A stretch of 64,000 nucleotides of DNA from Pseudothauera rhizosphaerae (GTDB taxonomy: Bacteria; Pseudomonadota; Gammaproteobacteria; Burkholderiales; Rhodocyclaceae). Below are positions 44,326 through 61,799 of the stretch, in pieces. The notes below the pieces were generated by a model. The model was not told the DNA's origin. It saw only the letters and a program-made list of their open reading frames with translations, and made no database searches. Each line of letters begins with the position of its first letter. The stretch's first letter is position 1. The DNA lies in NCBI RefSeq assembly GCF_004801305.1, contig NZ_SSOD01000010.1, positions 62,001-126,000 on the forward strand, read 5' to 3'. Position numbers and translations under genes: made by a program.

Positions 44326-45609
<1,284 letters not shown>

Positions 45610-45657
45610 GATGATCGTTTCCTGGGATGAAAGTCTGGGATGCGGACCGCGTGCCGT

Positions 45658-48465
45658 TCAGAGATCGGCACGCAGCGCGCTGGCCTCGCGGTGCGCCGGG
45701 GAGTCTTCCGGCACCTGGCCGAGCAGCGTGTCGAGATGCTCGCGGGCTTCGTTCCTGCGGTCGAGCTTGAGGTAGGCGCGCGCCAGGTTCAGGCGCAGCG
45801 CCGGCACGGCGGGCGCCAGCGTCACCGCACGGTTCAGGTTGGCGAGCCCCTTCTCGGTTTCGCCGCGCTCGACCTGCAGCATGCCCAGCGTATCGAGGAT
45901 GGCGGGATTGTCCGGCGTGATCTCCAGCGCCTTTTCCGCATAGGAGATCGCCGCGGGATCGCCGAGCTGGCCCGCGACCCAGGCCAGGTTGTTGAGCACC
46001 AGCGCGTTGGTGGGTTCGATGTCGAGCACCTCGCGATACAGGCGCTCGGCGTCCTTCAGGCGCTGCTCGCCGATGGCGCGCTCGGCCAGATAGGCGCGCA
46101 TCGCCGTGTCGCGCTCTTCGGCGCGCAGCCAGCCGGCCGCCAGGCGGTCGGCTTCGGCCTTGCGGCCGGCCCCCACCAGCGCACCGTGCAGGCGCACGTT
46201 CACGGGCGCGTTGCGCGCCTCCGATTTCTCGATGGCACGCCGATAGGCGGTGACGGCGGGTTCCCAGTTGCGCCGCCGGAACTGGATGTCGCCCTCGGCG
46301 GCAAAGCCTATGCCGCCCAGCTCGGCCACGCCCTGCATGTCGCGCGCCTGGGCGAGCGCCTCGTCCAGGCGCTCCTGTTCGACCAGCAGCAGCATCAGGC
46401 GCTCGCGCGCGACGCGGTTGCCGGGCTGCAGGGCGATGGCGCGGCGCAGGGACTGCTCGGCGCCCTTGAGATCCTTGGCGGCGATCTGGGCGGCGCCCAT
46501 CTCCACCAGCGGTGCCGCCACGCGCGGCATCAGCGCGGCCAGACGGCCGAAGGAGCGCGCCGCCTGCTCGTGCTGGCCGGCGGCGGACTGGGCGCGCGCG
46601 AGCGCCTCCACCGCGGCGGGATCGCTGGCGTTCGCGGCGGCGGCTTCCTGCGCAACGGTCAGGGCGCGGCGCGCATCGCGCTGGCGCAGGTGGTGGCGAA
46701 CCAGTGCGAGCTTGGGCAGCAGCGCCCCCGGCGCCGCGGCCGCGGCTTTTTCCAGGATGGCCAGCACCTCGGCGGGCGGAGCACCGGTGCTGCTCTTCAG
46801 TTCGGCCAGGGCGATGCGCGCATCCACGTTGGCGGGATGGGCGGCCACGAAGGCATCGAGGCGGGCGGCGGCGGCATCGGGCTTGTCGGCGGCCATGTCC
46901 AGGCGGGCGAGATTCACCACCGCGGAGAGCAGATCGGGGCGCAGCGCGAGCGCCTTTTCGAAGGCTTCGCGCGCGGCGGGCAGATCCTGGCGGGCCATCA
47001 GCACCCCGCCCCGCATGTTGTGCGCCTCGGCGTTGTCGGGATGCCGGTCCACCATGGCATCGGCCGCGGCCAGCGCCTTGTCGTAGTCCCGTGCGCGCAG
47101 GTGCGCGAGCACCAGCGCCACGTCGGCCTGGATGCCCTGGTCGTCCATGGTCGCCGCGGCCTGCAGGTCGGCCAGCGCCTGCGCGGACTCGCCGCCCATC
47201 AGGCGCGCGACGCCGAGCCGCATGCGCGCCCCGGCATCCTCCGGCGCGGTGGCCGAGGCGCGGGCGAAGTAGTCGGCGGCGGCGGCGAACTCGCCGTTGC
47301 CGAGCAGGGTCTGGCCGATCACCAGATTGCTGCGCGCATCCTTGGAGTCGGCGTCGATCAGCGGCTTGACCACTTCCATCGCCCGCGTCGGCTGCGCGGT
47401 CGCCAGCAGCGACAGCGCCAGCATCTGCCGTGCCGGCACGTGGCCGGGAATGCGTTCGAGCACCTTGTTGAGGCCGAGCTGGGCCTGGGTGTGGTTGCCG
47501 AGGCGGAAGAACACGCTGCCGGAGAGCAGATGCGCCGGGAGGAAATCGGGGGCGCCACGCAGGGCCAGCGCCACTTCGTCGCGCGCTTCGGTGTTGCGCC
47601 CGTCGCGGTGGGCGATCAGGGCGGTCAGGTAGTGGGTGGCGGGGCTGTTGGGCGCCGCCTTGCGCATGGCCTCGACCTCGGCCTTGGCCTCGTCGGCACG
47701 CTGCAGGCGCAGCAGCAGGGTGATCAGTTCGTAGCGATAGGCCGGCACGTCCGGACGGCTGCGCACCGCCGCGGCCAGGGATTCGACCGCCGCCTCGGGC
47801 TGCTTGCGCGCCATCAGTATCTGTGCCTGCAGCAGGTGCGCCTCGGCGAGATCGGGCTCGTCCTGCAGCAGCGCGGCCACGTCGCGCTCGGCGCCTTCCA
47901 GGTCGTCGGCGAAGAAGCTCACGCGGGCCATGCCGAGACGCGCGGCGGCGTTTGCCGGCAGGGCCGACGCGGCCGACTGGTAGGCGCTGCGCGCGCGCTC
48001 CAGGTCGGCCTTGGCCAGGTAGGCGGTGCCGAGTTCGGCCGACAGACGGCCCTGGGCATCGGCGTCGGCGAGCCGGGTGTCGGCGTACTTGGTGATGACC
48101 TTGTCGAACTGGCCCGCACGCACCAGCGCGGCGGCCAGCAGGGGGGCGACCCGCTCCGTGGGATGGCCGAGTTCCTCGGCACGCTGCAGTTCCTTGACCG
48201 CCTCGGCCACGTCGCCCAGTTCGAGGCTGACCTGCCCCAGCAGGAAGCGCCCTTCGGCCAGCGAGCCGTCCTTCTGCAGGGCGTTCTTCAACTGGATGCT
48301 GGCGGCCCGCAGGTCCTGTCTGGCGATGTATCCGCGCGCGGAATCGAGCAGCTTCTCCGGCGGGTCGCCGCAGCCGCCGAGCAGCGCCGCGGCGCCCAGC
48401 GCGAACACCAGCGCGGCGACGGAGCCGCGGCGGACCGGACGGGAACGGGTGGGTTCGGCAGGCAC
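45658..48465 (-). CDS. prsT: PEP-CTERM system TPR-repeat lipoprotein PrsT
   Basis: This 935-residue lipoprotein begins with a signal sequence whose lipobox is LLGGC (about 30-34), then TPR-like repeats to the C-terminus (for example AYQSAASALPANAAARLGMA and AEKALEITPDNPAILDTLGM). It matches PrsT of exosortase loci in length and composition. It probably sits in the outer membrane or periplasm as a scaffold for exopolysaccharide or PEP-CTERM handling. GTG 48465 with AAGGAG 8 nt ahead is the start; the long upstream frame belongs to prsR. Only 2 nt separate it from prsR. Confidence 0.9.
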   Translation of the reverse strand: MPAEPTRSRPVRRGSVAALVFALGAAALLGGCGDPPEKLLDSARGYIARQDLRAASIQLKNALQKDGSLAEGRFLLGQVSLELGDVAEAVKELQRAEELGHPTERVAPLLAAALVRAGQFDKVITKYADTRLADADAQGRLSAELGTAYLAKADLERARSAYQSAASALPANAAARLGMARVSFFADDLEGAERDVAALLQDEPDLAEAHLLQAQILMARKQPEAAVESLAAAVRSRPDVPAYRYELITLLLRLQRADEAKAEVEAMRKAAPNSPATHYLTALIAHRDGRNTEARDEVALALRGAPDFLPAHLLSGSVFFRLGNHTQAQLGLNKVLERIPGHVPARQMLALSLLATAQPTRAMEVVKPLIDADSKDARSNLVIGQTLLGNGEFAAAADYFARASATAPEDAGARMRLGVARLMGGESAQALADLQAAATMDDQGIQADVALVLAHLRARDYDKALAAADAMVDRHPDNAEAHNMRGGVLMARQDLPAAREAFEKALALRPDLLSAVVNLARLDMAADKPDAAAARLDAFVAAHPANVDARIALAELKSSTGAPPAEVLAILEKAAAAAPGALLPKLALVRHHLRQRDARRALTVAQEAAAANASDPAAVEALARAQSAAGQHEQAARSFGRLAALMPRVAAPLVEMGAAQIAAKDLKGAEQSLRRAIALQPGNRVARERLMLLLVEQERLDEALAQARDMQGVAELGGIGFAAEGDIQFRRRNWEPAVTAYRRAIEKSEARNAPVNVRLHGALVGAGRKAEADRLAAGWLRAEERDTAMRAYLAERAIGEQRLKDAERLYREVLDIEPTNALVLNNLAWVAGQLGDPAAISYAEKALEITPDNPAILDTLGMLQVERGETEKGLANLNRAVTLAPAVPALRLNLARAYLKLDRRNEAREHLDTLLGQVPEDSPAHREASALRADL

Positions 48466-48467
48466 GG

Positions 48468-49826
48468 TCAGGACTCCTTCTTGAGGCCGAAACGGTTCAT
48501 CAGGTCGTACAGCGAAGGGCGGCTGATCCCCAGGATTTCGGCGGCGCGGGCGATGTTGCCGTTGGTGCGCGCCAGCACGCGCACCACCGCCTGGCGCTCG
48601 GCTTCCTCGCGCACCTGGCGCAGGTTGAAGAAGCCCAGGTCGGCTTCGGCCGTTTCCAGGCCCAGGTCGCCGGCCGTGATGCGGTTGCCTTCGGCCATGA
48701 TCACGGCGCGCTTCAGGCAGTTTTCCAGCTCGCGCACGTTGCCTGGCCAGCGGTGCGCGGCGATGGCGTCCAGGGCGTCGTCGGCAAGCTGCATGCTGCC
48801 GCGGCGGTTTTCCTGGGCGTAGCGCTGCACGAAGGCATGGGCGAGCAGCGCCGCGTCGCCCTCGCGCTCGCGCAGCGGGGGGATGTCCACCACGATCTCC
48901 GCCAGGCGGTAGTAGAGGTCCTCGCGGAACAGGCCCTCGGCGATGCGCGCCTTCAGGTCGCGGTGGGTGGCGCACACCACGCGCACGTCCACCGCGATGC
49001 CCTCGCGCCCGCCGATGCGCTCGATCACCCGCTCCTGCAGGAAGCGCAGCAGCTTGGCCTGCAGCGCCATGGGCAGGTCGCCGATCTCGTCGAGGAACAG
49101 CGTGCCCTTGTGGGCCAGCTCGATCTTGCCCGGGGTCTGCTTGACCGCGCCGGTGAAGGCGCCCTTCTCGTAGCCGAACAACTCGCTTTCGAGCAGGTTT
49201 TCCGGAATCGCGGCGCAGTTGATGGCGACGAAGCGCCCGCCGACGCGCGGGCTGAGCGCGTGCAGCCCGCGCGCCAGCACCTCCTTGCCGGTGCCGCTGT
49301 CGCCGATCAGCGCCACGGTGACGTTGGCCGAAGCCACCTTCTCGATGGTTCGACAGACCTTGAGCATGCCGGAGTCGCGGGTGATCAGGCCGTCCAGCAC
49401 GCTGCCCTGCACCGCCTGCAGGCGGCGGTTCTCGGCCTGCAGGTCGTACAGGCGGAAGGCGCGTTCGATGGTCAGCGCCAGCAGCTCGGGCTCGAAGGGT
49501 TTGGCAAAGAAATCGTAGGCACCCAGGCCCACCGCCCGCACGGCGTTTTCGCGGTCGTGCTGACCGGTGAGCACGATGACCTTGGTGTCCGGCGCCATGC
49601 CCAGCATCTCGCCCAGCAGGCGGAAGCCCTCGCCCACGTCGTCGGGCTCGGGCGGCAGGCCCAGGTCCATGGTGACCACCGCCGGCTCGAAGCGGCGCAA
49701 CTGGGCAATGGCGCTCTCGCGGTCGCCCGCGACCACGGTTTCGAAGGCGTCGAAGGCCCAGCGCATCTGCTTCTGCAGGGCCGGGTCGTCTTCGACGATG
49801 AGCAGGGTGCGGCGCTTTTCCGTCAT
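48468..49826 (-). CDS. prsR: PrsR, sigma-54-dependent response regulator of the PEP-CTERM system
   Basis: This 452-residue NtrC-family regulator has a receiver (about 1-125, phospho-Asp54 in VTMDLGLPP, Lys109 in FFAKPF), an AAA+ domain (GDSGTGKE 176-183, canonical GAFTGA 222-227, [10 protein letters not shown] 241-250) and a Fis-type HTH ([24 protein letters not shown]). It activates sigma-54 promoters when phosphorylated by PrsK, whose gene lies 3 nt upstream. In related floc-formers PrsK/PrsR and RpoN control PEP-CTERM genes. A matching promoter is at 25463-25478. Confidence 0.94.
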
Positions 49827-49829
49827 GGC

Positions 49830-51950
49830 TCAGGCACGAAGGGATTCGGACGTGTTGGGGGACGCCGCCGCGAGACCCTCGTCCATGGCAGACGCCTCGC
49901 GCCGGCAGGCCGGCAGTTTCAGGAGTACCCGGGTACCCCGTCCCTGCTCGCTGTCGTAAGCGATGGTTCCTCCCAGCTCACGGACGTACTGGCTGGTCTC
50001 GTACACGCCGAGCCCCATGCCGCCGTCCTTGGTGGTCTGGAAGGGGCGCGACAGGCGTTCGCGGATGAACTCCTGCGTCATGCCGCAGCCGGTGTCCGCC
50101 ACCTCGAGCGTCCAGAAGCCGTCGTCGCCTCCATTCACTTTCAAGGCCACCTTACCATCCTCGGGCGTGGCGTCGAGGGCATTTTGCACGAGGTGGCCCA
50201 CGACCCGTTCCAGTCGCTCGGCATGGGCGAGCACGTGCGCGCCACCCTCCTCGGGCACCGCGATCCGGATGGCGGGGCGCTGGGTGCGCTTCACGTTGCG
50301 GAGGCGTTCGGCCAGCGCGCCCAGATCCACCGGCCGCGCCGCGTCGATGGAGCGCTTTTCCTGCAGTTGCGCCATCAGCGCGCGCATGCGCGCTTCCACG
50401 TGGGCCACGGTCTCCAGCATGTCCTGCTGGAATTCCGGGTTGTCCCGGTGGCGCTCGGCGTTCTTGAGCATCAGCGACAGTTGCGCGACGAGGTTCTTCA
50501 GGTCGTGCACCACGAAGGCCGACATGCGGTTGAAGGAATCGAACTTGCGCGCCTCGATCAGCGCCTCGGTCACCTGCATGCGCGCCAGGTAGCTGGCGGC
50601 CTGGCTCTGGGCGGTCTTGAGCAGATCGAGCACCTCCCAGTTGATCTCGAAGGGTGCGCGCGGCGCGTGCAGGACGACGAAGCCCACCAGCCGCCCGCCC
50701 GACTTGAGCGGGATCACCAGCCAGGCGCCCTCGAGCTGCAGCAACCAGTCGGGCAAGCGCAGGCCCCCGTAGCGCGCCGGCCCCATGCGGAATTCCTCCA
50801 GGTTGATCACCCACTCGCGCTCGGCGAGGAAGCCGCACAGCGGGCCGTCCTCCGTCTCCACCGCATCACAGGCGGGCGCGTTCAGGCGCGAATGCTGGGC
50901 CAGGCGCCCTTCGCCATTGCGCAGCCACAGGCCGCCGCCGGGGCTTTCCACCAGGTCCGACAGGGCCTTGATCACCGACTGGCCGAGATCCAGTTCGCCG
51001 TCGGCCGAGGACAGCGCCTGGGTGAAGCGCAGCCACTCGTTGCGGTAGTCGTAGCGGTAGGGGAAGAGGTGCTTGTTCACCAGCACGCGCAGGCGCGCCC
51101 GGCTCGCCCCGGAACCGACGATGAGGCCCAGCATCAGCAGGCCGGCGAACAGCAGCGCCATCTGCAGCGCCCGCCCCCAGTCGCCGCCCAGGTAGCGCAC
51201 GTAGTAGCCCGCCGCGGCGATCACCAGCAGGTAGGCGCCGGCCACCGCCAGCGCGGTGGAATGGAACACCACCTCGCGCGACATGGAGATGCGCAGCGTC
51301 CACGACGGACTGCGGGCGGCCGACAGGGCCACCAGCGGAATCACCATGGCGTGCACCAGGCCGCGCACCGACCACACGTCGGCATCGAGGCGGGCAAACA
51401 GGAAGCCGTCGGCGAAGAAATACAGCTCGAACATCCAGCCGGCGGCCAGCCCCAGGCACAACGGCTTGAGCCCCCAGCGCGACTCCCGCGGCAGGCTGCG
51501 GAACAGTTGCTCCACCAGCACCAGCCCGAGTACCGCCGCGGCCAGGAAGCTCCCCAGCAGCAGCTTGCCGGCAACCTCCGCACCACCCACCAGCGTATCG
51601 ACCGGCAGCAACGCCGACGCCAGCATGGACAGCACCGCCACCACCGCCACCACCGGCCAGCGCCGCCACGGCGTGCCCGGCGGATGCAGCAGCACCAGCA
51701 CGAAGACGTACCAGGCGGCGACCCGCGCCACCTCCAGCAGCGCCGCGCCGCGCATCAGCCATACGCCGGGGGACCACGCCACCAGCGCGGCACTGAGCGC
51801 CCACGCGGTGCTCGCCACCGCGGCCACGACCAGCACGCCGCCGGGCGGGCCGCCCCGCCAGGCGCCGAGCAGATACAGGGCGAAGATCGCGTAGGCCGCC
51901 GCGGCCAGGCCATAGCCCCAGACGGCGACGACCGAGATTTCAGCAAGCAT
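49830..51950 (-). CDS. prsK: PrsK, membrane histidine kinase of the PEP-CTERM system
   Basis: The protein has 706 residues with about eight to nine transmembrane helices in the first 280, a GAF-like domain (about 310-460), a dimerisation/phosphoacceptor helix with His482 in VVHDLKNLVAQLSLM, and an HATPase with QNALDA, DTGCGM and GMGLGVYET. This is the PrsK layout. It would sense an unknown envelope signal and phosphorylate PrsR. The order prsK-prsR-prsT-nucleotide-sugar dehydrogenase is co-directional with tiny gaps, so one operon is likely. ATG 51950 was taken as the start. Confidence 0.93.
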   Translation of the reverse strand: MLAEISVVAVWGYGLAAAAYAIFALYLLGAWRGGPPGGVLVVAAVASTAWALSAALVAWSPGVWLMRGAALLEVARVAAWYVFVLVLLHPPGTPWRRWPVVAVVAVLSMLASALLPVDTLVGGAEVAGKLLLGSFLAAAVLGLVLVEQLFRSLPRESRWGLKPLCLGLAAGWMFELYFFADGFLFARLDADVWSVRGLVHAMVIPLVALSAARSPSWTLRISMSREVVFHSTALAVAGAYLLVIAAAGYYVRYLGGDWGRALQMALLFAGLLMLGLIVGSGASRARLRVLVNKHLFPYRYDYRNEWLRFTQALSSADGELDLGQSVIKALSDLVESPGGGLWLRNGEGRLAQHSRLNAPACDAVETEDGPLCGFLAEREWVINLEEFRMGPARYGGLRLPDWLLQLEGAWLVIPLKSGGRLVGFVVLHAPRAPFEINWEVLDLLKTAQSQAASYLARMQVTEALIEARKFDSFNRMSAFVVHDLKNLVAQLSLMLKNAERHRDNPEFQQDMLETVAHVEARMRALMAQLQEKRSIDAARPVDLGALAERLRNVKRTQRPAIRIAVPEEGGAHVLAHAERLERVVGHLVQNALDATPEDGKVALKVNGGDDGFWTLEVADTGCGMTQEFIRERLSRPFQTTKDGGMGLGVYETSQYVRELGGTIAYDSEQGRGTRVLLKLPACRREASAMDEGLAAASPNTSESLRA

Positions 51951-52013
51951 GGTTGAATCTGCCGGGCATGGACCCGGCTCAACGCCGGCCGCCGGCCGGC
52001 GATGCAGGGTCGC

Positions 52014-53399
52014 TCAATGCGCCCCCTCGCCGGTGAGCACGACGCGCACGGTTTCGAGCAGGATCAGGGTGTCGAGCACCAGCGTGTGGTTCTTCACGTA
52101 GTAAAGATCGTACTGCAGCTTGTTGAGCGCATCGTCCACCGACGAACCGTACTTGTAGCGCACCTGCGCCCAGCCGGTCAGCCCCGGCTTGACGCTGTGG
52201 CGCACGGCGTAGAACGGGATGTCGAGGGTGAGCTGATGCACGAAGAACGGCCGCTCCGGGCGCGGCCCCACCAGGCTCATGCTCCCGGCCAGCACGTTGA
52301 ACAACTGGGGCAGTTCGTCGATGCGCAGGCGGCGGATCACGCGGCCGACGTGCGTCGTGCGGTCGTCGTTGCGCGCCGCCCAGCGCGGCGTGCCGTCGCG
52401 TTCGGCGTCGCGGCGCATGCTGCGGAACTTGACCACCTTGAACACCCGTCCGCCCTGGCCGACGCGCTCCTGCCGGTAGAACACCGGCGCGCCGTCTTCG
52501 AGCAGGATGGCCAGCATGGTCAGCAGCATCACCGGCATGGCCAGGGTCAGCAGCACCGCGGCGGCCAGCAGGTCGAAGGAACGCTTGACGAAGGCCCGCC
52601 CCCGCCCCTGGCGGAAACCGTCGCCGTAGATCAGCCAGCTCGCCCTGAGCGAGTCGATGCGGACCTGGCCGCTCACGTGCTCGAAGAATCCCGACAGGTC
52701 GTCCACCTTCACGCCGCGCAGCTTGCAGTCGAGCAGATCGCGCAGGGGCAGCACGCCGCCGCGGCGCTCGCGCACCGCCACGATGACCTGTCCGACGCGA
52801 TGTTCGCGGACCACGTCGATCAGGCTCGCCCCGCGGCCGAGCACGCGCGCCGGGTCCACCTGCGGTGCATCCCCGGCGTTGGGCAGATAGAAGCCCACCA
52901 GCTCCACGCCGCTGTCCGCCGGGCTGCTCAGAGCCTCCTCGACCGACAGCGCATCGGACCCGCCGCCCACGACCAGCGCGCGGCGCGTGAACAGCGCGTT
53001 GGCCTGGCGCCGGTTGAGCGCCCCGCGCATCGCCAGAACCGCGCCGAGCAGCAGCAACACCGTGACCTGGATCGCTTCCGAGGCGAAGTAATCCCACGGC
53101 AGCACATGGAACACGCCGTACGCCACCGGCACGCTCACCACCACGCCCAGGATCACCCGGATCAGCCAGTCGCGCGAAGAACCGCCCGCCGGCGAGCGAT
53201 ACAGCCCCAGCACGCTGTTGAGCGCGATCATCGTCACCGCGAACAGCATCGCCGAAGGTATCACCAACGGCCAGTCGGTCGTCCGGGCATCGAACTGGAA
53301 GGCGATGGCCAGAATGACGGCAAGGCAAAGCAGCACCGCGTCCGTGAGGACCTGGAACAGCGTATGCGATGGAAAATAATGGCTGAAGACCTTCAGCAT
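52014..53399 (-). CDS. EpsB-type undecaprenyl-phosphate sugar phosphotransferase (exosortase-associated)
   Basis: The protein has 461 residues: four N-terminal membrane helices (about 20-150), a CoA-binding-like Rossmann region (RRALVVGGGSDALSVEEAL), and after a further helix (about 280-300) the bacterial sugar transferase domain (KRSFDLLAAA, PVFYRQERVGQGGRVFKVVKFRSMR, LPQLFNVLAGSMSLVGPRPERP). It starts exopolysaccharide repeat assembly by moving a sugar phosphate to the lipid carrier. ATG 53399 follows a strong GAGAGGGGGG. It belongs to the sugar-transferase group of the PEP-CTERM/EpsH1 locus. The remaining EPS genes and xrtA are not in the window. Confidence 0.91.
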   Translation of the reverse strand: MLKVFSHYFPSHTLFQVLTDAVLLCLAVILAIAFQFDARTTDWPLVIPSAMLFAVTMIALNSVLGLYRSPAGGSSRDWLIRVILGVVVSVPVAYGVFHVLPWDYFASEAIQVTVLLLLGAVLAMRGALNRRQANALFTRRALVVGGGSDALSVEEALSSPADSGVELVGFYLPNAGDAPQVDPARVLGRGASLIDVVREHRVGQVIVAVRERRGGVLPLRDLLDCKLRGVKVDDLSGFFEHVSGQVRIDSLRASWLIYGDGFRQGRGRAFVKRSFDLLAAAVLLTLAMPVMLLTMLAILLEDGAPVFYRQERVGQGGRVFKVVKFRSMRRDAERDGTPRWAARNDDRTTHVGRVIRRLRIDELPQLFNVLAGSMSLVGPRPERPFFVHQLTLDIPFYAVRHSVKPGLTGWAQVRYKYGSSVDDALNKLQYDLYYVKNHTLVLDTLILLETVRVVLTGEGAH

Positions 53400-53447
53400 G
53401 GCCCCCCCTCTCCGACCTGCAGCCTTGTGCCGTCGTCTGAACGTGAA

Positions 53448-53463
53448 TGGCAACCCGATTGCC
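53448..53463 (+). promoter_or_regulatory. Possible sigma-54 promoter pointing at a small membrane protein
   Basis: TGGCAACCCGATTGCC has GG-N10-GC spacing and matches TGGCA and TTGC, but lacks the CG after TGGCA. It points rightwards, away from the sugar transferase, with a leader of over 200 nt before the next ORF. A match of this quality could occur by chance in 64 kb. Confidence 0.3.
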
Positions 53464-53689
53464 GACACCTTATATGACGCACTGCGGCGCCGATGTTAAA
53501 CCCGTCACGGCCCGTCTCAGCCTTTGCAGGACACCCGGACGCAAAGCATCGCTACCCACATCGGGTAATTTCGCATACCCCTTTTCGCCGACTTGCGGAC
53601 AGGTCGATTACTGTATATTCTTACACCACATCGGACGCCTGCTGCGCAGCGCCCGCAAACCTGGCTGACTCGATACGGAACCCCCCATC

Positions 53690-54013: not shown

Positions 54014-54104
54014 GGAGAGGTGGATGAGTGGTTTAAGTCGCACGCCTGGAAAGCGTGTTCAGGGTAATACCCTGACGCGGGTTCGAATCCCGCCCTCTCC
54101 GCCA
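54014..54104 (+). tRNA. tRNA-Ser (anticodon GGA)
   Basis: The 91-nt class II tRNA has acceptor GGAGAGG pairing with CCTCTCC, anticodon stem CACGC/GCGTG with loop CTGGAAA (anticodon GGA), a long variable arm (TTCAGGGTAATACCCTGA region) and T arm GCGGG-TTCGAAT-CCCGC. CCA is encoded. A -10-like TAGAAT (53995-54000) lies 13 nt upstream. Confidence 0.97.
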
Positions 54105-54176: not shown

Positions 54177-54356
54177 GCCCGGGCGACATGGCCACGGCGG
54201 CCTCCGAAAGCTCTCGGCGAATCAGGACTCGAGCACGTAAGTCCCCGGCGCGGGGCTTGAGCCAGCCCATCCATTCCTCCCTCCAACTTCCGGTGTAGAG
54301 CCGAGCACGCTCGCGCCACTGGCCGGGCGGTCGGTGCGGTGGGCGGCGGCCCGGTT

Positions 54357-54374
54357 TGTGACATGCCTGTCACA
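54357..54374. promoter_or_regulatory. Palindrome before the PhoU-like/PPDK-half operon
   Basis: TGTGAC-ATGCCT-GTCACA is a perfect 6-6-6 inverted repeat. The CRP half-sites TGTGA and TCACA are 8 nt apart rather than 6, so it is more likely an operator for another dimeric regulator. It lies 40 nt before the preferred GTG start. Confidence 0.4.
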
Positions 54375-54414: not shown

Positions 54415-56343
54415 GTGGAAAAAGTCGATGCGCTCGCCACCCTGGGGCAGGACGAACTCCTGAAACCGGCACGGGTCAAGGCCGCGCTGGCGGCCAACGA
54501 CCGTCTCAAGCTCTACCTGAGCGTGCTGCAGGCCGCCGGCGAGCGTGCCGACAAGGCCGACGCCCCGCCCCTGGATCTCTCCTGCGAGCTCGCCGCCGCG
54601 GGCGTGAACGCGCCCTGGCTCGCCAACCTGCCGGCCGCCGCCTACCGGGAAGGCCGCACGCTGCACATCCCCGAACTCGCCCGCCTCGCCGGACTGCTGC
54701 GCGAGGACCTGCACACCATGGCGCGGCCGCTGGAAGGCGACGCGGACTTCGATACCCGCCTCGCCCACTGGACCGGATGGGTGGACGGACTGGCGCCGAA
54801 CGAACTCTCCCCCGAGCAGTTGCACGCGCTGGTGAGCGGCAAGCGCGGCAAGAACGACAGCGTCCACCTGCTGATCATGGACCTGCACAAGGCGCTCAAC
54901 CGCATGGCCGCCCGACTGTCCAGCGAGAACATCGACGGCGCCCACGTGTGGCAACTGGACGAGGCCGACCGGCCGCGGGTGGCCGCCTTCATGCGCGGCG
55001 TCAATGCCACGCGCGCCCTCAAGCTCGACCACCCCGGCCTGGATACCGCCGCCACCCGCGACGGCGTGCGCCTGCTGCTGCAGAACGACATCGGCACCAA
55101 CGACGCCCACGTGCTGGTGATCCAGGTGGAGGACCTGCACGTCAGCCTCACCTATTCCGACCTGCACCGGCGCCGTTTCGACTTCTTCCGCACCCTGCTC
55201 GAAGCGGTCGGCGCGGAGTGGACCGAACCCCGGGCACGCGTCACTGCCGGCCTCAACGCGGGCGATGCCTACTACGTGGGCGTGGCCACCTTCGCCTGCG
55301 CCGACGAGGAACTGCTGGGGGCAGTACTCGAAGGCATAGGCGAGCGCATCGTGTTCCTGATCGACTGGAACCGGGCGCGCAAGCGGCTGGAACTCTTCGT
55401 GGGCAGGCCCGCCGCGCTGGAGGTGCTGACCGAGGCCGCCCGGCGCCGGATCGGCCACATGAGCTGGCTCACGGCCGGCGGCGAGAAGCTGGTCTTCGGC
55501 GCCATGGAGGCGCTGGGCCCGGACTACTTCCATCTGGGCGACCGCCTGGACGACGTCATGGGCGCCGAGCGGGCGGTGGAATTCCTGCTCGACGCCTTCG
55601 CGCTCGCCACCAAGGCCATGCAGCAGCATCAGCCGGCCGCGCTGATCGCCGACGACACGCGCCTGCTGCTGGCGCGTTACATGAGCCGCCACGACGAGTT
55701 CGACCTGCTGGCCGAACACGCCGCCTACTGCCACGCCCTGGCCGAAGGGCTGCGGGATGCGCTCGCCCACGGCCACGAGCGCGACCGGGAAGCCGCCCGC
55801 AGCTTCGCCGAGCGCGCCAAGGACTGGGAGCGCCGCGCCGACCAGTTGGTGATGGACGCCCGCGCCCGCGCCGAGGCCCGCCCGCGCTGGACCGGCTTCG
55901 CCAGGCTGGTGGAGGGTGCCGACGACGTGGCCGACGCGCTGGAGGAGGCCGCCTTCCTGCTGTGCCTGATCGCCGCCGGCCACCATCACGGCTGGCGCGG
56001 AGAAGTGCACCAGTCCATGCGCCTGCTGGCCGACGCCGTGCTCGGCGCGGTGCAGGACCACGTCAAGGCGCTGGCCATCGCCCGCAGCTTCGGCGAGGGC
56101 AGTTGCGCCGAGGACCACGAGGAGTTCGTCGCCGCCCTGTGGCGCGTGCTCAACGCGGAACGCCAGAGCGACATCCTGCTGCGGGAGGTGCGCCGCGCGC
56201 TGGCCGAACACGTGAGCGACGCCGCCACGCTGCAGTTGAGCACCGACTTCGCCCAGGCGCTGGAAGCGGCCACCGACGCCCTGCTCGCCACCGGCTACGG
56301 CCTGCGGCGGCTGGCCTTCAGCCGCGCGGGGGCGGGCGAATGA
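54415..56343 (+). CDS. Unknown protein with C-terminal PhoU/DUF47-like domain
   Basis: The product has 642 residues from GTG 54415, which has GGGAG 6 nt ahead; ATG 54388 without a ribosome site is the alternative. The first 400 residues match nothing I recognise. They are soluble and rich in charged helices and contain a predicted alpha/beta stretch around EDLHVSLTYSDLHRRRFDFF. The last ~220 form helices of the PhoU/DUF47 type (WERRADQLVMDARARAE, then ARLVEGADDVADALEEAAF). DUF47 proteins act with phosphate transporters. Its stop overlaps the PPDK-half start (ATGA), so the two are coupled. Function unknown. Confidence 0.8.
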   Translation: MEKVDALATLGQDELLKPARVKAALAANDRLKLYLSVLQAAGERADKADAPPLDLSCELAAAGVNAPWLANLPAAAYREGRTLHIPELARLAGLLREDLHTMARPLEGDADFDTRLAHWTGWVDGLAPNELSPEQLHALVSGKRGKNDSVHLLIMDLHKALNRMAARLSSENIDGAHVWQLDEADRPRVAAFMRGVNATRALKLDHPGLDTAATRDGVRLLLQNDIGTNDAHVLVIQVEDLHVSLTYSDLHRRRFDFFRTLLEAVGAEWTEPRARVTAGLNAGDAYYVGVATFACADEELLGAVLEGIGERIVFLIDWNRARKRLELFVGRPAALEVLTEAARRRIGHMSWLTAGGEKLVFGAMEALGPDYFHLGDRLDDVMGAERAVEFLLDAFALATKAMQQHQPAALIADDTRLLLARYMSRHDEFDLLAEHAAYCHALAEGLRDALAHGHERDREAARSFAERAKDWERRADQLVMDARARAEARPRWTGFARLVEGADDVADALEEAAFLLCLIAAGHHHGWRGEVHQSMRLLADAVLGAVQDHVKALAIARSFGEGSCAEDHEEFVAALWRVLNAERQSDILLREVRRALAEHVSDAATLQLSTDFAQALEAATDALLATGYGLRRLAFSRAGAGE

Positions 56344-57962
56344 AGAAAGTCCCGGCCCCATCGCCTTCCGGCGCAGCCGAGACGCGCCGGACCGTACGCC
56401 TGATCCACGCGGACCATCCCCTCACCGCCACTGCAGGCCCGCAGGAACTCGGCTTCAAGGCCTGGAACCTGGCGCGCATGGCTGCCCTGGGCCTGCCGGT
56501 GCCGCCCGCCTTCGTGCTCGGCACGGGCTGGTGCGCACAATCCGCCGCAGTGGAGCGGGAGTGCTGGCTCCCCGCGCTGGTGGAACTGGAGCGGCTGACC
56601 CGGCTGCGCCTGGGCGACGTGCGCCATCCCCTGCTGCTGTCGGTGCGCTCCGGCGCGCCGGTATCCATGCCCGGCATGATGGACACGCTGCTCAACATCG
56701 GCCTCACCGCCGCCACCCTGCCCGGCTTCATCCGCATCGGCGGCCAGCCGCGCCTCGCCTGGGACGCCTACCGCCGCCTCATCAGCGGCTTCGGCGAAGT
56801 GGTCGCCGGCGTGGACGCGGGCCACTTCGAGGCGGATCTGGACAACCTGCGCGGCGATGCCGACGAACGCAGCCTGGACTTCGCCGACCTGCGCACGCTG
56901 GCCGCGCGCCACCTGGAAACCTACCGCCGCGAGGCCGGCGAGGCCTTCCCCCAGGACGCCCACGCCCAGCTCGAAATGGCCATCGCCGCCGTGTTCGCCT
57001 CCTGGAACGCCCCCAGGGCGCGCACCTACCGGGAACTGCACGGCCTGCCCCACGACCTGGGCACCGCCGTCACCGTGCAGGCCATGGTGTTCGGCAATGC
57101 GGGCGGCCTGTCGGGGGCGGGCGTGGGATTCACACGCGATCCGAGCAGCGGCGAAGCGAAGCCCTGGGTCGATTTCCTTTTCAACGCCCAGGGCGAGGAC
57201 GTGGTCAGCGGCCGCCGCAGCGCGCTTGGACACGAGGAACTGGCCGCCGTCGCGCCCCACGTGTGGGAGGCCCTGCTGCAGGCCGCCGACCGGCTGGAAC
57301 GCGCCTTCGGCGACATGCAGGACTTCGAGTTCACCGTGCAGGACGGCCGCCTGTACCTGCTGCAGACGCGGGAAGGCAAGCGCACGCCGCTCGCCGCCGC
57401 ACGCATCGCCCTCGACCTGTACGAGGAAGGCCGCATAGATGCCCGCACCGCCCGCGAACGCACCGCCGGGCTGGACGCCCAGTCCCTGACCCAGCGCCGA
57501 ATCACCGCCGCCGACGGGGCCGTGCTCGTGCCCCTTGCCCACGCGCCCAGCGCGGCGAGCGGCGTGGCCTGCGGCGAGATCGCCCTCGACGAGGCCCGCG
57601 CCCGCGAGCGCACCCGCGCCGGCGCGGCCGTCGTGCTGGTGCGCAACGACGCGGAGACGCGGGACATCGCCGCCCTCGACCTCGCCGAAGGCTTGCTGAC
57701 GCGGCGCGGGGCGCGCACCTCCCACGCCGCGGTCGTCGCCCGCCAGCTCGGCAAGGTCTGCCTGGTCGGCTGCGACGGCCTGCAGATCGACGAGGCCGCG
57801 CGCACCATCCGGCTGGGCGACACCACGCTGCGCGAGGGCGACCTGCTGACCCTGGACGGCAACACCGGCACCCTCTACGCCGGCCGCGCCCAGGTCGTGG
57901 AGACGGTGCCCGAGGCGCTCATGGAACGGCTCCGGGCCCTGCGCACGGCCGAACGGGCCTGA
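56340..57962 (+). CDS. Half-length pyruvate phosphate dikinase (ATP-grasp and phospho-His domains only)
   Basis: This 540-residue protein follows PPDK closely in its first part: GFKAWNLARMAALGLPVPP, SVRSGAPVSMPGMMDTLLNI, VQAMVFGNAGGLSGAGVGF and FNAQGEDVVSG. The swivel histidine domain is intact (His462 in ARTSHAAVVARQLGK). The C-terminal PEP/pyruvate TIM barrel, about 350 residues in normal 870-900-residue PPDK, is absent. There is no frameshift remnant: it ends cleanly with TGA and intergenic DNA follows. It should form phospho-His from ATP and Pi but has no visible acceptor site. It is coupled to a PhoU-like protein. Phenylphosphate synthase and rifampicin phosphotransferase fit less well. 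Confidence 0.88.
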   Translation: MKKVPAPSPSGAAETRRTVRLIHADHPLTATAGPQELGFKAWNLARMAALGLPVPPAFVLGTGWCAQSAAVERECWLPALVELERLTRLRLGDVRHPLLLSVRSGAPVSMPGMMDTLLNIGLTAATLPGFIRIGGQPRLAWDAYRRLISGFGEVVAGVDAGHFEADLDNLRGDADERSLDFADLRTLAARHLETYRREAGEAFPQDAHAQLEMAIAAVFASWNAPRARTYRELHGLPHDLGTAVTVQAMVFGNAGGLSGAGVGFTRDPSSGEAKPWVDFLFNAQGEDVVSGRRSALGHEELAAVAPHVWEALLQAADRLERAFGDMQDFEFTVQDGRLYLLQTREGKRTPLAAARIALDLYEEGRIDARTARERTAGLDAQSLTQRRITAADGAVLVPLAHAPSAASGVACGEIALDEARARERTRAGAAVVLVRNDAETRDIAALDLAEGLLTRRGARTSHAAVVARQLGKVCLVGCDGLQIDEAARTIRLGDTTLREGDLLTLDGNTGTLYAGRAQVVETVPEALMERLRALRTAERA

Positions 57963-58065: not shown

Positions 58066-59241
58066 ATGGATTTCAGCCTGAGCAGCGAACAGCAGGTCCT
58101 GGTGGAGCTGGCCGACCGTCTGGGGCGCGAGGTCTTCGCGCCCAAGGCGGCGCGCTGGGACCGGAACCACGAATACCCCCACGAGAACGTGGAGGTGCTG
58201 CGCCAGGCCGGCCTGCTGGGCATGACCATCCCGCGCCGCTTCGGCGGCCAGGAACGCCCGCTGATCGACGTGGCGCTGGTCATCGAACAGATCGCCCGCT
58301 ACTGCGGTGTCACCGCCCGCATCGTGGTGGAGACCAACGTGGGCGCGCTGGGCTGCATCATGGCCTACGGCAGCGAGGCCCAGCAGCGCGAGACCGCCCG
58401 CCGCATCCTCGAAGAGGGCGACAAGCCGGTCATCGCCATGACCGAGCCCGAGGCGGGCACGGACCTGACCGCCCTGCGCACCACCGCGGTGGAGCAGGAC
58501 GACCACTACGTCATCCACGGCACCAAGCACTGGATCACCGGCGGCGGCATCGCCCGCACCAACTTCGTCTTCGCCCGCATCGTGGACCGCGGCGGCCGCG
58601 ACCAGGGCATAGGCGGCATCCTGGTGGACAAGGGCACGCCGGGCTTCCGCTTCGGCCGCGTGGAGGACGCCATGGGGCTGCGCGGCATCCCGGAGACCGA
58701 GCTGATCTTCGAGAACTGCCGGGTACCCAAGGAAAACCTGGTGCCGGCCGACCCGCGCGACCGCTTCAAGAAGCTGATGAACGGCTACAACGCCCAGCGC
58801 ATCGGCGCCTCCTGCGTGGCCCTGGGCATCGCCCGCGGCGCCCACGAGCTGGCGGTGGACTACATGCAGCAGCGCACTTCCGGCGGCCGCAAGCTGGCCG
58901 ACTACCAGGGCCTGCGCTGGATGGCGGCCCACGGCGAGGCCAGGCTGCAGGCCGCCCGCCTGCTGATCCACCGCGCCGCCTGCAACGCCCGCCACCTGCC
59001 CAACAACGTGATGCTGCCGGACATGGAGGAAGCCTCCATCGCCAAGGTGTTCACCGCCCACAACGCCTTCGACGTGGTCAGCGAATCCCTGCAGATGTTC
59101 GGCGCCGCCGGCTACTCGCGGGACCTGCCGCTGGAACGCATGCTGCGCGACGTGCGCATGTTCCAGATCGGCGGCGGCACCTCCCAGGCCCAGCTCAACA
59201 TGATCGCCCGCTGCATCTTCCCCGACGCGGGGCGCCCGTGA
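58066..59241 (+). CDS. Acyl-CoA dehydrogenase
   Basis: The protein has 391 residues and the full ACAD fold: N-terminal helices (1-120), beta domain with MTEPEAGTDLTAL (about 125-137) and HGTKHWITGGG, and a C-terminal bundle with MFGAAGYSRDLPLERMLRDVR. The site that is EGT in short/medium-chain enzymes reads GGGT, as in isovaleryl-type ACADs whose catalytic Glu lies elsewhere. It oxidises an acyl-CoA to the enoyl-CoA, passing electrons to ETF. Its stop overlaps the GTG start of the CoA transferase. Substrate unknown. Confidence 0.93.
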   Translation: MDFSLSSEQQVLVELADRLGREVFAPKAARWDRNHEYPHENVEVLRQAGLLGMTIPRRFGGQERPLIDVALVIEQIARYCGVTARIVVETNVGALGCIMAYGSEAQQRETARRILEEGDKPVIAMTEPEAGTDLTALRTTAVEQDDHYVIHGTKHWITGGGIARTNFVFARIVDRGGRDQGIGGILVDKGTPGFRFGRVEDAMGLRGIPETELIFENCRVPKENLVPADPRDRFKKLMNGYNAQRIGASCVALGIARGAHELAVDYMQQRTSGGRKLADYQGLRWMAAHGEARLQAARLLIHRAACNARHLPNNVMLPDMEEASIAKVFTAHNAFDVVSESLQMFGAAGYSRDLPLERMLRDVRMFQIGGGTSQAQLNMIARCIFPDAGRP

Positions 59242-60470
59242 GCGGCGGGCCGCTGGCGGGCGTCCGCGTCCTCGACCTGTCGCGCATCCTGGCTGGCCCG
59301 AACTGCGCCCAGTTGCTGGGCGACCTGGGCGCGGAAGTGATCAAGGTGGAAAAGCCCGGCGAGGGCGACGACACCCGGCGCTGGGGGCCGCCCTTCGTGC
59401 GCGACCGGCACGGCAAGCCCACCGGCGAGAGCGCCTACTATCTGTGCGCCAACCGCAACAAGCGCTCCATCGCCGTGGACCTCTCCCGCCCCGAAGGCCA
59501 GTCCCTGGTCCGCCGGCTGGCCGCGCGCAGCGACGTGCTGATCGAGAACTACAAGGTCGGCACGCTGGGACGCTACGGCCTGGACTACGCCAGCCTGCAC
59601 GAGACCCTGCCCGGGCTGATCTACTGCTCCATCACCGGCTTCGGCCAGACCGGCCCCTACGCCACGCGCAGCGGCTACGATTTCCTGATCCAGGGCATGG
59701 GCGGCATCATGAGCCTGACCGGGGAACCGGACGGCCCGCCCATGAAGACCGGCGTGGGCATCGCCGACGTCATGACCGGCATGTACGCCGCGGTCGCCAT
59801 CCTCGCCGCCCTGCGCCACAAGGAGCATACGGGCGAAGGCCAGCACATCGACCTGGCCCTGTTCGACACCCAGCTCGCCTGGCTGGTGAACGCCGGCACC
59901 AATTACCTGCTCTCGGGCCGCGACCAGCCCCGACTGGGCAACGCCCACCCCAACATCGTGCCCTACGAGGTCTTTCCCGCCCGCGGCGGGCATTTCATCC
60001 TGGCGGTGGGCAACGACGGCCAGTTCCGCCGCCTGTGCGGCCTGCTGGAACGGCCCGGACTGGCCGACGATCCGCGCTACGCCACCAACCCGGCGCGCCT
60101 GGAGCACCGGGACACGCTGATCCCGCTGCTGAAGGACCTCACCCGCCGCCGGGAACGCAGCCACTGGCTCGGCCAGTGCGAAGCCCTGGGCATTCCCGCC
60201 GGCCCGGTGAACACCGTGTCCGAAGCCTTCGCCGACCCGCAGGCCCGTTTCCGCGGCGCCCGCGTGGACCTCGCCGACGAGGAGGTGGAAGGCGGCAGCG
60301 TGCCCCTGGTCGCCAACCCCATCCGGCTCAACGCCACGCCGGTCACCTACCGCCGCGCCCCGCCCCGCCTGGGCGCCCACAGCCGGGAAATCCTCGCCGA
60401 AGTGCTGGAACTGCCGCCGCAGGAGATCGACGCGCTGATCGCCGCCGGGGTCGTCGCCGAGGGGGCATGA
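59238..60470 (+). CDS. Class III (CaiB/BaiF) CoA transferase
   Basis: The protein has 410 residues with catalytic aspartate Asp177 in GIADVMTGMYAA, LDLSRILAGPNCAQLLGDLGAEVIKVE in parts, and RPEGQSLVRRLAARSDVLIENY. It swaps CoA between carboxylates. GTG 59238 overlaps the preceding stop as GTGA. With the dehydrogenase it probably activates and oxidises one acid, for example a dicarboxylate or aromatic-derived acid. The pair is the sort found in catabolic clusters. Confidence 0.93.
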   Translation: MSGGPLAGVRVLDLSRILAGPNCAQLLGDLGAEVIKVEKPGEGDDTRRWGPPFVRDRHGKPTGESAYYLCANRNKRSIAVDLSRPEGQSLVRRLAARSDVLIENYKVGTLGRYGLDYASLHETLPGLIYCSITGFGQTGPYATRSGYDFLIQGMGGIMSLTGEPDGPPMKTGVGIADVMTGMYAAVAILAALRHKEHTGEGQHIDLALFDTQLAWLVNAGTNYLLSGRDQPRLGNAHPNIVPYEVFPARGGHFILAVGNDGQFRRLCGLLERPGLADDPRYATNPARLEHRDTLIPLLKDLTRRRERSHWLGQCEALGIPAGPVNTVSEAFADPQARFRGARVDLADEEVEGGSVPLVANPIRLNATPVTYRRAPPRLGAHSREILAEVLELPPQEIDALIAAGVVAEGA

Positions 60471-60528
60471 AGCCTGCCCGCGCAGCAAGGGCTGAAATGA
60501 AACACACCATGCCTGCACCGTGCGCAAG

Positions 60529-60634
60529 CCCCTCTCCCCTCGCGGGAGAGGGGTTGGGGAGAGGGGGCTGGGACGGGCGCCGTGCCTGCATCGAGCGCCC
60601 CCTCTCCCCGGCCCTCTCCCGCGAGGGGAGAGGG
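60529..60634. repeat. Palindromic intergenic repeat pair
   Basis: The units CCCCTCTCCCCTCGCGGGAG and its inverse CTCCCGCGAGGGGAGAGGG stand about 65 nt apart, with inner GGGGAGAGGGGGC and GCCCCCTCTCCCC also inverted. It is a second family, different from the one at 10 kb. It lies in the 318-nt gap between the CoA transferase and the substrate-binding protein. The remaining part of that gap holds only a possible -10 TAGACT near 60740. Confidence 0.8.
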
Positions 60635-60788
60635 AGCACAGCCACCCCGTTTCATGCGTCGTGGGTCGCGCCGGGCGCGGTGGAGCAACTGATATGCAAA
60701 TCCGAATTTCTCGGTTCCCGTCCTCCCGCCCCCTCCCTAGACTGCCGCGGGCATCGCCGACCCCGCCATCCCGAAAGGAACACCGATC

Positions 60789-61799
60789 ATGAAGCGTTTC
60801 CTGCGTCACACCGCCGCCCTGGCCGCCGGCCTGGTCCTGGCCGCGGGCAGCCTGTCCGCCCAGGCCGAAGGGCGCATCCGCATCGCCCAGCAGTTCGGCA
60901 TCACCTATCTGGTCCTGGACGTGCTGCGCGACCAGCAACTGGTGGAAAAGCACGGCCGCAAGGCGGGGCTGGACATCCAGGTGGAATGGGCCAAGCTCTC
61001 CGGCGCCACGGCCATGAACGAGGCCCTGCTCTCCGGCAATCTGGACATCGTGTCCGCCGGCGTGCCGCCGGCCCTGGTCCTGTGGGACCGCACCCGCGGC
61101 AAGCAGAACGTCAAGGCCGTGGCGGCGCTGGGTTCGCTGCCCAACTACCTGCTCACCAACAACCCGAACGTCAGGACCCTGACGGACTTCGGCGACAAGG
61201 ACCGCATCGCCGTGCCGGCCGCCGGCGTCGGCTTCCAGTCGCGCACGCTGCAGATCGAGACGGCCCGCCTGTTCGGCAAGGAAAACTTCAACCGCTACGA
61301 CCGCATCTCCGTCAGCCTGCCCCACCCGGAAGCCACCGCGGCGCTGATTTCCGGCGGCCTGGACGTGAACGCGCACTTCTCCAGCGCGCCCTTCTACTAC
61401 CAGGCCCTGGAAGCCAACCCGAACATCCGCAAGGTGCTCAGTTCCTACGACATCCTCGGCGGCCCGGCCACTTTCTGCGTGCTCTACACCACGGAGAAAT
61501 TCCGCGGCGAGAATCCCAAGACCTACAAGGCGTTCTACGACGCCCTCGTGGAAGCCTCGGAATGGCTGCGCCACAACAAGGCGGAAGCCGCCCGCCTCTT
61601 CATCCGCCAGCAGAAGTCCAGGCTGTCCGAGGAATTCGTCCGCAAGATCCTGGACGACCCGGAGAACGACTTCACCATCGTGCCGCAGCAGACCTTCGTC
61701 TATGCCACCGAACTGCACAACATCGGCGTGCTGAAGAACAAGGCCGGCTCGTGGAAGGACTACTTCTTCGAGGAAGCCCACAGCCTGCCGGGCAGTTGA
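60789..61799 (+). CDS. ABC transporter substrate-binding protein, NMT1/SsuA-like
   Basis: The 336-residue periplasmic protein has a signal peptide (MKRFLRHTAALAAGLVLAAG, cut at AQA-EGR). It has the type II fold of nitrate/sulfonate/taurine binding proteins (RIAQQFGITYLVLDVL, MNEALLSGNLDIVSAGVPP, FYDALVEASEWLRHNKAEAA). AAGGA precedes ATG 60789. No permease or ATPase gene is next to it, so it is an orphan here; the ATPase at the left edge is far away. The substrate could be an organic anion handled by the flanking acyl-CoA and 2-hydroxyacid enzymes. Confidence 0.9.
   Translation: MKRFLRHTAALAAGLVLAAGSLSAQAEGRIRIAQQFGITYLVLDVLRDQQLVEKHGRKAGLDIQVEWAKLSGATAMNEALLSGNLDIVSAGVPPALVLWDRTRGKQNVKAVAALGSLPNYLLTNNPNVRTLTDFGDKDRIAVPAAGVGFQSRTLQIETARLFGKENFNRYDRISVSLPHPEATAALISGGLDVNAHFSSAPFYYQALEANPNIRKVLSSYDILGGPATFCVLYTTEKFRGENPKTYKAFYDALVEASEWLRHNKAEAARLFIRQQKSRLSEEFVRKILDDPENDFTIVPQQTFVYATELHNIGVLKNKAGSWKDYFFEEAHSLPGS

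Follow-up and report, generated by a model that had tools for sequence, protein, structure and literature searches.

The 64,000-nt stretch of Pseudothauera rhizosphaerae contig NZ_SSOD01000010.1 analyzed here (the window, to whose positions all coordinates refer) carries an overlapping pair of genes. The first encodes a protein with a C-terminal PhoU/DUF47 domain (the partner), and the second encodes a pyruvate, phosphate dikinase (PPDK) without its phosphoenolpyruvate (PEP)/pyruvate barrel (the half-PPDK). Our preferred reading, held with about even confidence, is that the pair is a split dikinase in which the N-terminal domain of the partner (the N-domain) takes the place of the barrel and hands phosphate on to an acceptor. 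We favor it because the half-PPDK gene lies directly downstream of the partner gene in 79 of 80 related loci and adjoins it in 4 of 4 further genomes, and 73 of 79 related pairs have a start codon placed so as to give the overlap seen in the window; because the distances of the two proteins correlate, N-domain residues are invariant and the PPDK catalytic residues are invariant or nearly so; because the N-domain, DUF47 and the half-PPDK occur together in every partner-bearing genome of our class and phylum samples; and because split dikinases have precedents in PpsAB (PMC7500099) and HpeHI (PMC12167813), as far as the available parts of those reports describe them.

A PPDK that ends after its swivel domain

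The partner gene (54415..56343, plus strand) starts with GTG and encodes 642 aa, and a longer frame is possible from the GTG at 54334. The half-PPDK gene (56340..57962, plus strand, 540 aa) is joined to it through an ATGA stop/start overlap (56340..56343, plus strand). The half-PPDK aligned with the C. symbiosum PPDK chain 1kbl over residues 18–523 of its 873 (E 1.6e-113). It shares the catalytic residues of PPDK but has no PEP/pyruvate barrel, ending after the swivel domain. It matched the PPDK model TIGR01828 over model positions 17–512 of 865 with 499.3 bits, below the cut-off of 843.45, and the short-PPDK model NF004531 (PRK05878) with 408.5 bits, below the cut-off of 456. The ATP-grasp half (56448..57524, plus strand, end approximate) was delimited by the 1kbl alignment and by conservation and contains K40, R103, D328, E330, Q342 and R344; the phospho-His swivel domain (57543..57887, plus strand) contains H462, whose codon is at 57723–57725. 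We take these seven residues to be the counterparts of the ATP-site and catalytic residues of PPDK. D328 was identical in 69 of 71 aligned half-PPDKs (window plus 70 relatives), and the other six were identical in all 71. Among the 79 related half-PPDK frames, 73 close inside their contig, and 70 of these, when aligned, were 497–610 aa long.

The next gene, from 58066, encodes an acyl-CoA dehydrogenase, and the 103 bases between it and the half-PPDK hold no barrel remnant. The reading frames, the 1kbl alignment and this gap thus confirmed what a first-pass annotation of the DNA had described, namely the ATGA overlap, ATP-grasp motifs, the swivel histidine, the stop at 540 residues and the missing barrel. 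The same annotation had named a barrel encoded elsewhere as one finding that could undo its proposal, and none was found. The barrel family PF02896 has two matches in the whole genome, in a 576-aa frame that is phosphotransferase system enzyme I (528.5 bits, cut-off 341.7) and in an 802-aa frame that is PEP synthase (1261.8 bits, cut-off 598), and we rejected the idea that a separate gene supplies the barrel. One further pair-bearing genome (G286) also has an 884-aa PPDK frame, so the half-PPDK is no substitute for PPDK there.

The pairing is conserved across proteobacteria

Conservation of the pairing in other genomes had been set beforehand as a check on the proposal. Scanning a genome collection, which reached close relatives only, gave 167 partner relatives, of which the best 80 were kept as loci. 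The only locus without a half-PPDK downstream was L063, whose contig stops 154 bases past the partner. Pair-bearing loci came from alpha-, beta- and gammaproteobacteria, with genera including Thauera, Azotobacter, Halomonas, Mesorhizobium, Tistrella, Methylobacter and Burkholderia-related ones. A partner profile (A1) matched in 2 of 369 genomes of the class sample (the own genome and G286), and an N-domain profile (A2) in 4 of 398 genomes of the phylum sample (the own genome, G451, G609 and G740); the four genomes other than our own all carry the N-domain and DUF47 on one chain with a half-PPDK adjoining. Occurrence is patchy, the pair being present in 2 of 41 genomes of the relatives sample, own genome included, and in 0 of the 5 same-genus genomes therein. 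Of the matches listed when the class sample was searched with a half-PPDK profile, those that were strong but did not belong to the pair fell mostly in frames the size of full-length PPDK; three genomes (G131, G253 and G354) had short PPDK frames of 581–675 aa with no partner match, in a clade apart from the half-PPDKs. Gammaproteobacterial short PPDK frames of this size range (L109, L110 and L111; 581–675 aa) extend about 90–100 residues past the swivel and lack a DUF47 partner. Plasmid records of relatives name the proteins "PEP/pyruvate-binding domain-containing protein" and "phosphate transport regulator", which is uninformative or misleading.

For the window and 61 loci, distances between partners correlated with those between half-PPDKs (r 0.89), and none of 999 permutations reached as high a value. 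In a maximum-likelihood tree of 44 sequences, 25 half-PPDKs formed a single group with support of 100/100, and this clade has a common end point. Eight short PPDKs were compared, five from Rhodococcus plasmids and three gammaproteobacterial; seven grouped apart from the half-PPDKs, beside one 848-aa Paraburkholderia frame, and the eighth (L092) sat on a long branch among full PPDKs.

Decay of a PPDK into a non-functional remnant, which the first-pass annotation had listed as a threat to its reading, would account for the absent barrel, and a few copies look damaged: the half-PPDK is split over two frames in draft loci L013 and L054, and the partner of a same-family relative (G010; L115:5996-8227) is broken by one in-frame TAG, with its half-PPDK frame open. 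We consider this explanation very unlikely and rejected it for both genes in view of the conserved catalytic residues, the single clade with its common end point, and a ratio of nonsynonymous to synonymous differences (pN/pS) of 0.37–0.53 between the window and copies from Thauera, Azotobacter and Halomonas (five comparisons per gene). Because the pairing is conserved, decay is not apparent and no free barrel was found, it is reasonable, judging from sequence, that the phospho-histidine is handed to an acceptor other than pyruvate.

The partner joins an N-domain without a fold match to a PhoU-like domain

The N-domain (aa 1–392; 54415..55590, plus strand) had no Pfam, NCBIfam or PDB match. Across an alignment of 76 sequences, made of the 71 members and the five most distant pairs (33–39% partner identity), 57 of its positions were invariant, 27 of them polar or ionizable, with partner identity reaching down to 33%. 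The invariant residues include H151, H158, N162, H206, N224, D225, D230, H232, Y247, D249, H251, R254, D317, N319, R322, K323 and H348, a pattern that suggests a catalytic or binding site.

An AlphaFold model of the full partner had a mean predicted local distance difference test score (pLDDT) of 86.4 and a predicted template modeling score (pTM) of 0.54; the first 392 residues modeled alone gave a mean pLDDT of 86.5 and a pTM of 0.67. Foldseek searches of the PDB, with the whole chain and with the domain alone, and of viral models returned no match for the N-domain with E ≤0.001, and a profile search of PDB sequences gave 0 matches. When Pfam and NCBIfam were run over 71 partners, only DUF47 (65 partners) and TIGR00153 (50) recurred in more than nine, and none recurred widely for the N-domain. 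The first ~400 residues, which the first-pass annotation could not place, thus stayed without a significant match in Foldseek, PDB-profile, Pfam and NCBIfam searches. Influenza PA, McsB and protein kinases were set aside as fold relatives owing to very low template modeling scores (TM-scores). The N-domain model weakly resembles small proteins of Bacillus phage G over about 145 columns, a likeness that is not significant by E-value: Gp520 gave E 0.013, probability 1.00 and a TM-score of 0.48 by target length, and Gp322 gave E 0.28 and a TM-score of 0.62.

The C-terminal PhoU_div/DUF47 domain (aa 426–621; 55690..56277, plus strand) was delimited by PF01865, Foldseek and conserved motifs. PF01865 matched the window's partner with E 3e-5 and 23.9 bits, just below the gathering cut-off of 24.4, and at E ≤1 DUF47 matched 65 of the 71 aligned partners, the lowest E being 6.8e-9. 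The model matched the PhoU-like structure 3l39 with a TM-score of 0.83 by target length (E 2e-3, probability 1.00). E472xxxD476, E582xxxD586 and E617xxxD621 were invariant in 71 of 71 sequences, and D503DxxD507 was nearly so. On the predicted structure, the domain has a PhoU-like fold, as the first-pass annotation had proposed. The partner shares this C-terminal fold and the E/DxxxD motifs with PhoU-like DUF47 proteins (PF01865, TIGR00153, 3l39) but differs from them in its additional 400-aa N-domain and in having a half-dikinase beside it. DUF47 proteins are associated with a neighboring Pit phosphate transporter; no Pit transporter was among the annotated neighbor families of the pair, although no search was aimed at Pit.

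Comparison with VadK and with described split dikinases

The closest described protein is VadK (Rv1127c), a PPDK without a barrel published in 2026 (PMC13400623; preprint PMC12636432). According to the available parts of that report, VadK phosphorylates itself on His422 when given ATP and Mg, methylcitrate-cycle enzymes co-precipitate with it, and its operonic partner Rv1126c makes it more soluble; the authors name Burkholderia ambifaria too (PMC13400623). Like VadK as described there, the half-PPDK has no barrel, an intact ATP-grasp and phospho-His swivel, and an operonic partner; unlike it, VadK is encoded near methylcitrate-cycle genes. A VadK-like regulatory histidine kinase is the main rival to the split dikinase: the half-PPDK would autophosphorylate and its phospho-state would control metabolic enzymes by binding, with the PhoU-like partner as sensor or brake instead of acceptor enzyme. 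The abstracts seen describe PhoU proteins as regulators, in keeping with such a role. Were the partner's role purely regulatory, the pair would amount to a proteobacterial counterpart of VadK. We regard this rival as doubtful, since half-PPDKs stand apart from seven of the eight short PPDKs in a tree that does not contain VadK itself, the partner profile had no match near the five Rhodococcus short PPDKs, and the many invariant polar residues of the 400-aa domain suggest a catalytic or binding site. The 202-aa proteins adjoining two of the Rhodococcus short PPDKs are weakly winged-helix/MarR-like, below Pfam cut-offs, and not DUF47. Judged by eye only, the stretch following the catalytic histidine in a primer printed in PMC13400623 seems closer to the swivel of Rhodococcus L096 than to the half-PPDKs.

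In two Rhodococcus plasmid loci (L093 and L094), 579-aa short PPDKs lie between the 202-aa protein and genes for biotin carboxylase, and a PEP-utilizing swivel protein is encoded close by; this region possibly belongs to an aromatic-ketone (Hpe-like) pathway.

HpeHI (PMC12167813) and PpsAB (PMC7500099) are split dikinases for phenolic molecules whose swivel, in the parts of these reports available, sits on the acceptor protein. PpsAB, CreHI and HpeHI resemble our pair in being divided over two proteins, in having a phospho-His swivel and in having a separate acceptor domain, which in our pair is a candidate one (PMC12167813, PMC7500099). As partly seen in the same sources, they differ in three respects: their ATP-grasp stands alone with the swivel fused to the acceptor domain, whereas the half-PPDK has ATP-grasp and swivel on one chain; their ATP motif is PEP-synthase-like by description, whereas the half-PPDK is PPDK-like by overall similarity; and only in our pair does the candidate acceptor domain lack a fold match and come with a PhoU domain. 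The best reading is that the division itself differs from known split dikinases, with ATP-grasp and swivel on one chain and the acceptor site on the PhoU-bearing chain.

Barrel-less autophosphorylating PPDKs (VadK) and split small-molecule dikinases (PpsAB, HpeHI) are already known, and the split point and partner found here differ from both, as far as those reports were available. The first-pass annotation had called the pair a candidate for an undescribed phosphotransfer system. For the half-enzyme this was too strong given the available parts of the VadK report (PMC13400623); for the DUF47 partner and its pairing with a half-PPDK, no description was found in the literature searched, a scope outside which most subscription journals fell.

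Upstream sites and neighboring genes

This analysis adds two new features of the loci: boxes of the FNR/FixK type ahead of the pair, and PHB (polyhydroxybutyrate)-synthase, phosphotransacetylase or CHAD neighbors. With TTGATN4ATCAA as the assumed FNR/FixK consensus, 38 of 79 loci had a box with at most two mismatches in the interval from −160 to −60 relative to the partner start, and 18 of 79 had one with at most one mismatch (L042 was left out, its upstream sequence being too short). Box density in the 300 bp upstream was 28 times (at most one mismatch) and 7 times (at most two) that elsewhere in the same loci. When the window was added to the 79 loci, a box with at most one mismatch was present in 19 of the 80 upstream regions, versus 0.36 in mononucleotide shuffles, and one with at most two in 47 of the 80, versus 4.3; the loci are related and hence not independent events. 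CRP-type sites showed no enrichment in the same regions. The pair thus looks, in sequence terms, as if it is often preceded by a low-oxygen switch, and it is probably made under low oxygen in many hosts. In the window, a perfect inverted repeat, TGTGACA-N4-TGTCACA (54357..54374, no strand assigned), starts 58 bp 5ʹ of the partner start and is the only perfect copy in the genome; with at most one mismatch, it recurs at the same place in 5 of 6 Thauera loci and also in one Mesorhizobium locus.

Across the 80 loci, PhaC (PHB synthase) was a neighbor in 17, a MaoC-phosphotransacetylase in 16, a FabI-like protein in 10, CHAD in 9 and acetate kinase in 7, and at least one of these occurred in 32; contig ends cut many loci, which makes all these counts lower bounds. 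A background was computed for CHAD alone: the 20 pair-bearing genomes (about 111 Mb) gave 26 match rows, corresponding to about 24 genes, which, scaled to the 0.96 Mb of loci, is an expectation of about 0.2. An earlier clustering of neighbors placed L025 and L045 in a CYTH-CHAD group too, and L015–L017 and L051 not. In L028, L082, L083, L086 and others, genes for a MaoC-phosphotransacetylase, acetate kinase, a FabI-like protein and PhaC recur in the vicinity of the pair and resemble a low-oxygen PHB/acetyl-phosphate island. For the lxa low-oxygen island of Burkholderia, the main texts that were term-searched, from among PMC6127331, PMC9104464, PMC3759415 and PMC10551460, lack PPDK, dikinase, PhoU and phosphate transport, leaving an analogy only.

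These surroundings bear on the converse direction of flow, an energy device working mainly in reverse, in which the partner would load the histidine from a donor such as acetyl-phosphate or polyphosphate, and ATP would be made by the half-PPDK from AMP and pyrophosphate (PPi) under oxygen limitation. CHAD is a polyphosphate binder, and its presence in nine loci, together with the phosphotransacetylase, acetate kinase and PhaC neighbors and the FNR-type boxes, is consistent with such a device. According to abstracts, some bacteria and protozoa use full PPDK in the ATP-forming direction. We nevertheless judge it unlikely, as no donor-binding motif was recognized and 48 of the 80 loci, though many of their contigs are short, are without these neighbors.

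A catabolic kinase serving the adjoining acyl-CoA dehydrogenase or a CoA transferase was unsupported, such genes not being among the annotated recurring neighbor families; a Methylocella plasmid pair also sits after acyl-CoA genes. The acyl-CoA dehydrogenase downstream in the window (58066–61799 region) had no close copy in 20 other sampled genomes (best 37% identity), and a tRNA-Ser (gga) gene lies at 54014–54104, just 5ʹ of the pair. Together these may mark an acquired island, although an exact repeat of at least the last 14 bases of the tRNA was not found within the window. Further upstream, minus-strand genes at 44326–53468 encode UDP-glucose/GDP-mannose dehydrogenase, a sigma-54 response regulator, a GAF histidine kinase and a bacterial sugar transferase, probably an exopolysaccharide cluster.

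Proposed mechanism and significance

In the split dikinase that we favor, the half-PPDK would move the β-phosphate of ATP onto His462, yielding AMP and PPi, by analogy with VadK and PPDK, and inorganic phosphate (Pi) would be a co-substrate if PPDK chemistry is kept. The swivel would then turn to the N-domain instead of a pyruvate barrel, and the N-domain would supply the acceptor site, from which phosphate might go to a small molecule, to Pi or polyphosphate, or to a residue of the partner itself. The fused PhoU-like domain may bind metal or phosphate and gate the reaction. A more far-reaching version, which we think improbable, is a new dikinase architecture: an undescribed fold would stand in for the barrel of PPDK and, under low oxygen, phosphate would move back and forth between the ATP/AMP-PPi couple and a reserve, for instance polyphosphate or acetyl-phosphate, with a PhoU-like phosphate sensor as the gate.

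Several observations weigh against the split dikinase. As far as their reports were available, described split dikinases carry the swivel on the same chain as the acceptor domain and leave the ATP-grasp domain without it; searched alone with Foldseek, the N-domain resembles no known acceptor domain; and the correlation of distances owes partly to shared descent. The neighbors name no single substrate, 48 of 80 loci being without PHB/acetyl-phosphate or CHAD genes, as is the window itself. At −160 to −60, an FNR-type box within two mismatches of the consensus is missing from 41 of 79 loci, and none lies in the window, where the best candidate has four mismatches.

These results indicate that, in a widespread lineage of proteobacteria, PPDK shed its carbon domain and took on a new partner, in a group distinct from most other short PPDKs in the comparison. 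They also draw attention to a 400-aa domain that matched no known fold in our searches. The pair offers a tractable system, for example in the non-pathogens Thauera or Azotobacter, for following the fate of a metabolic phospho-histidine that is not used for PEP.

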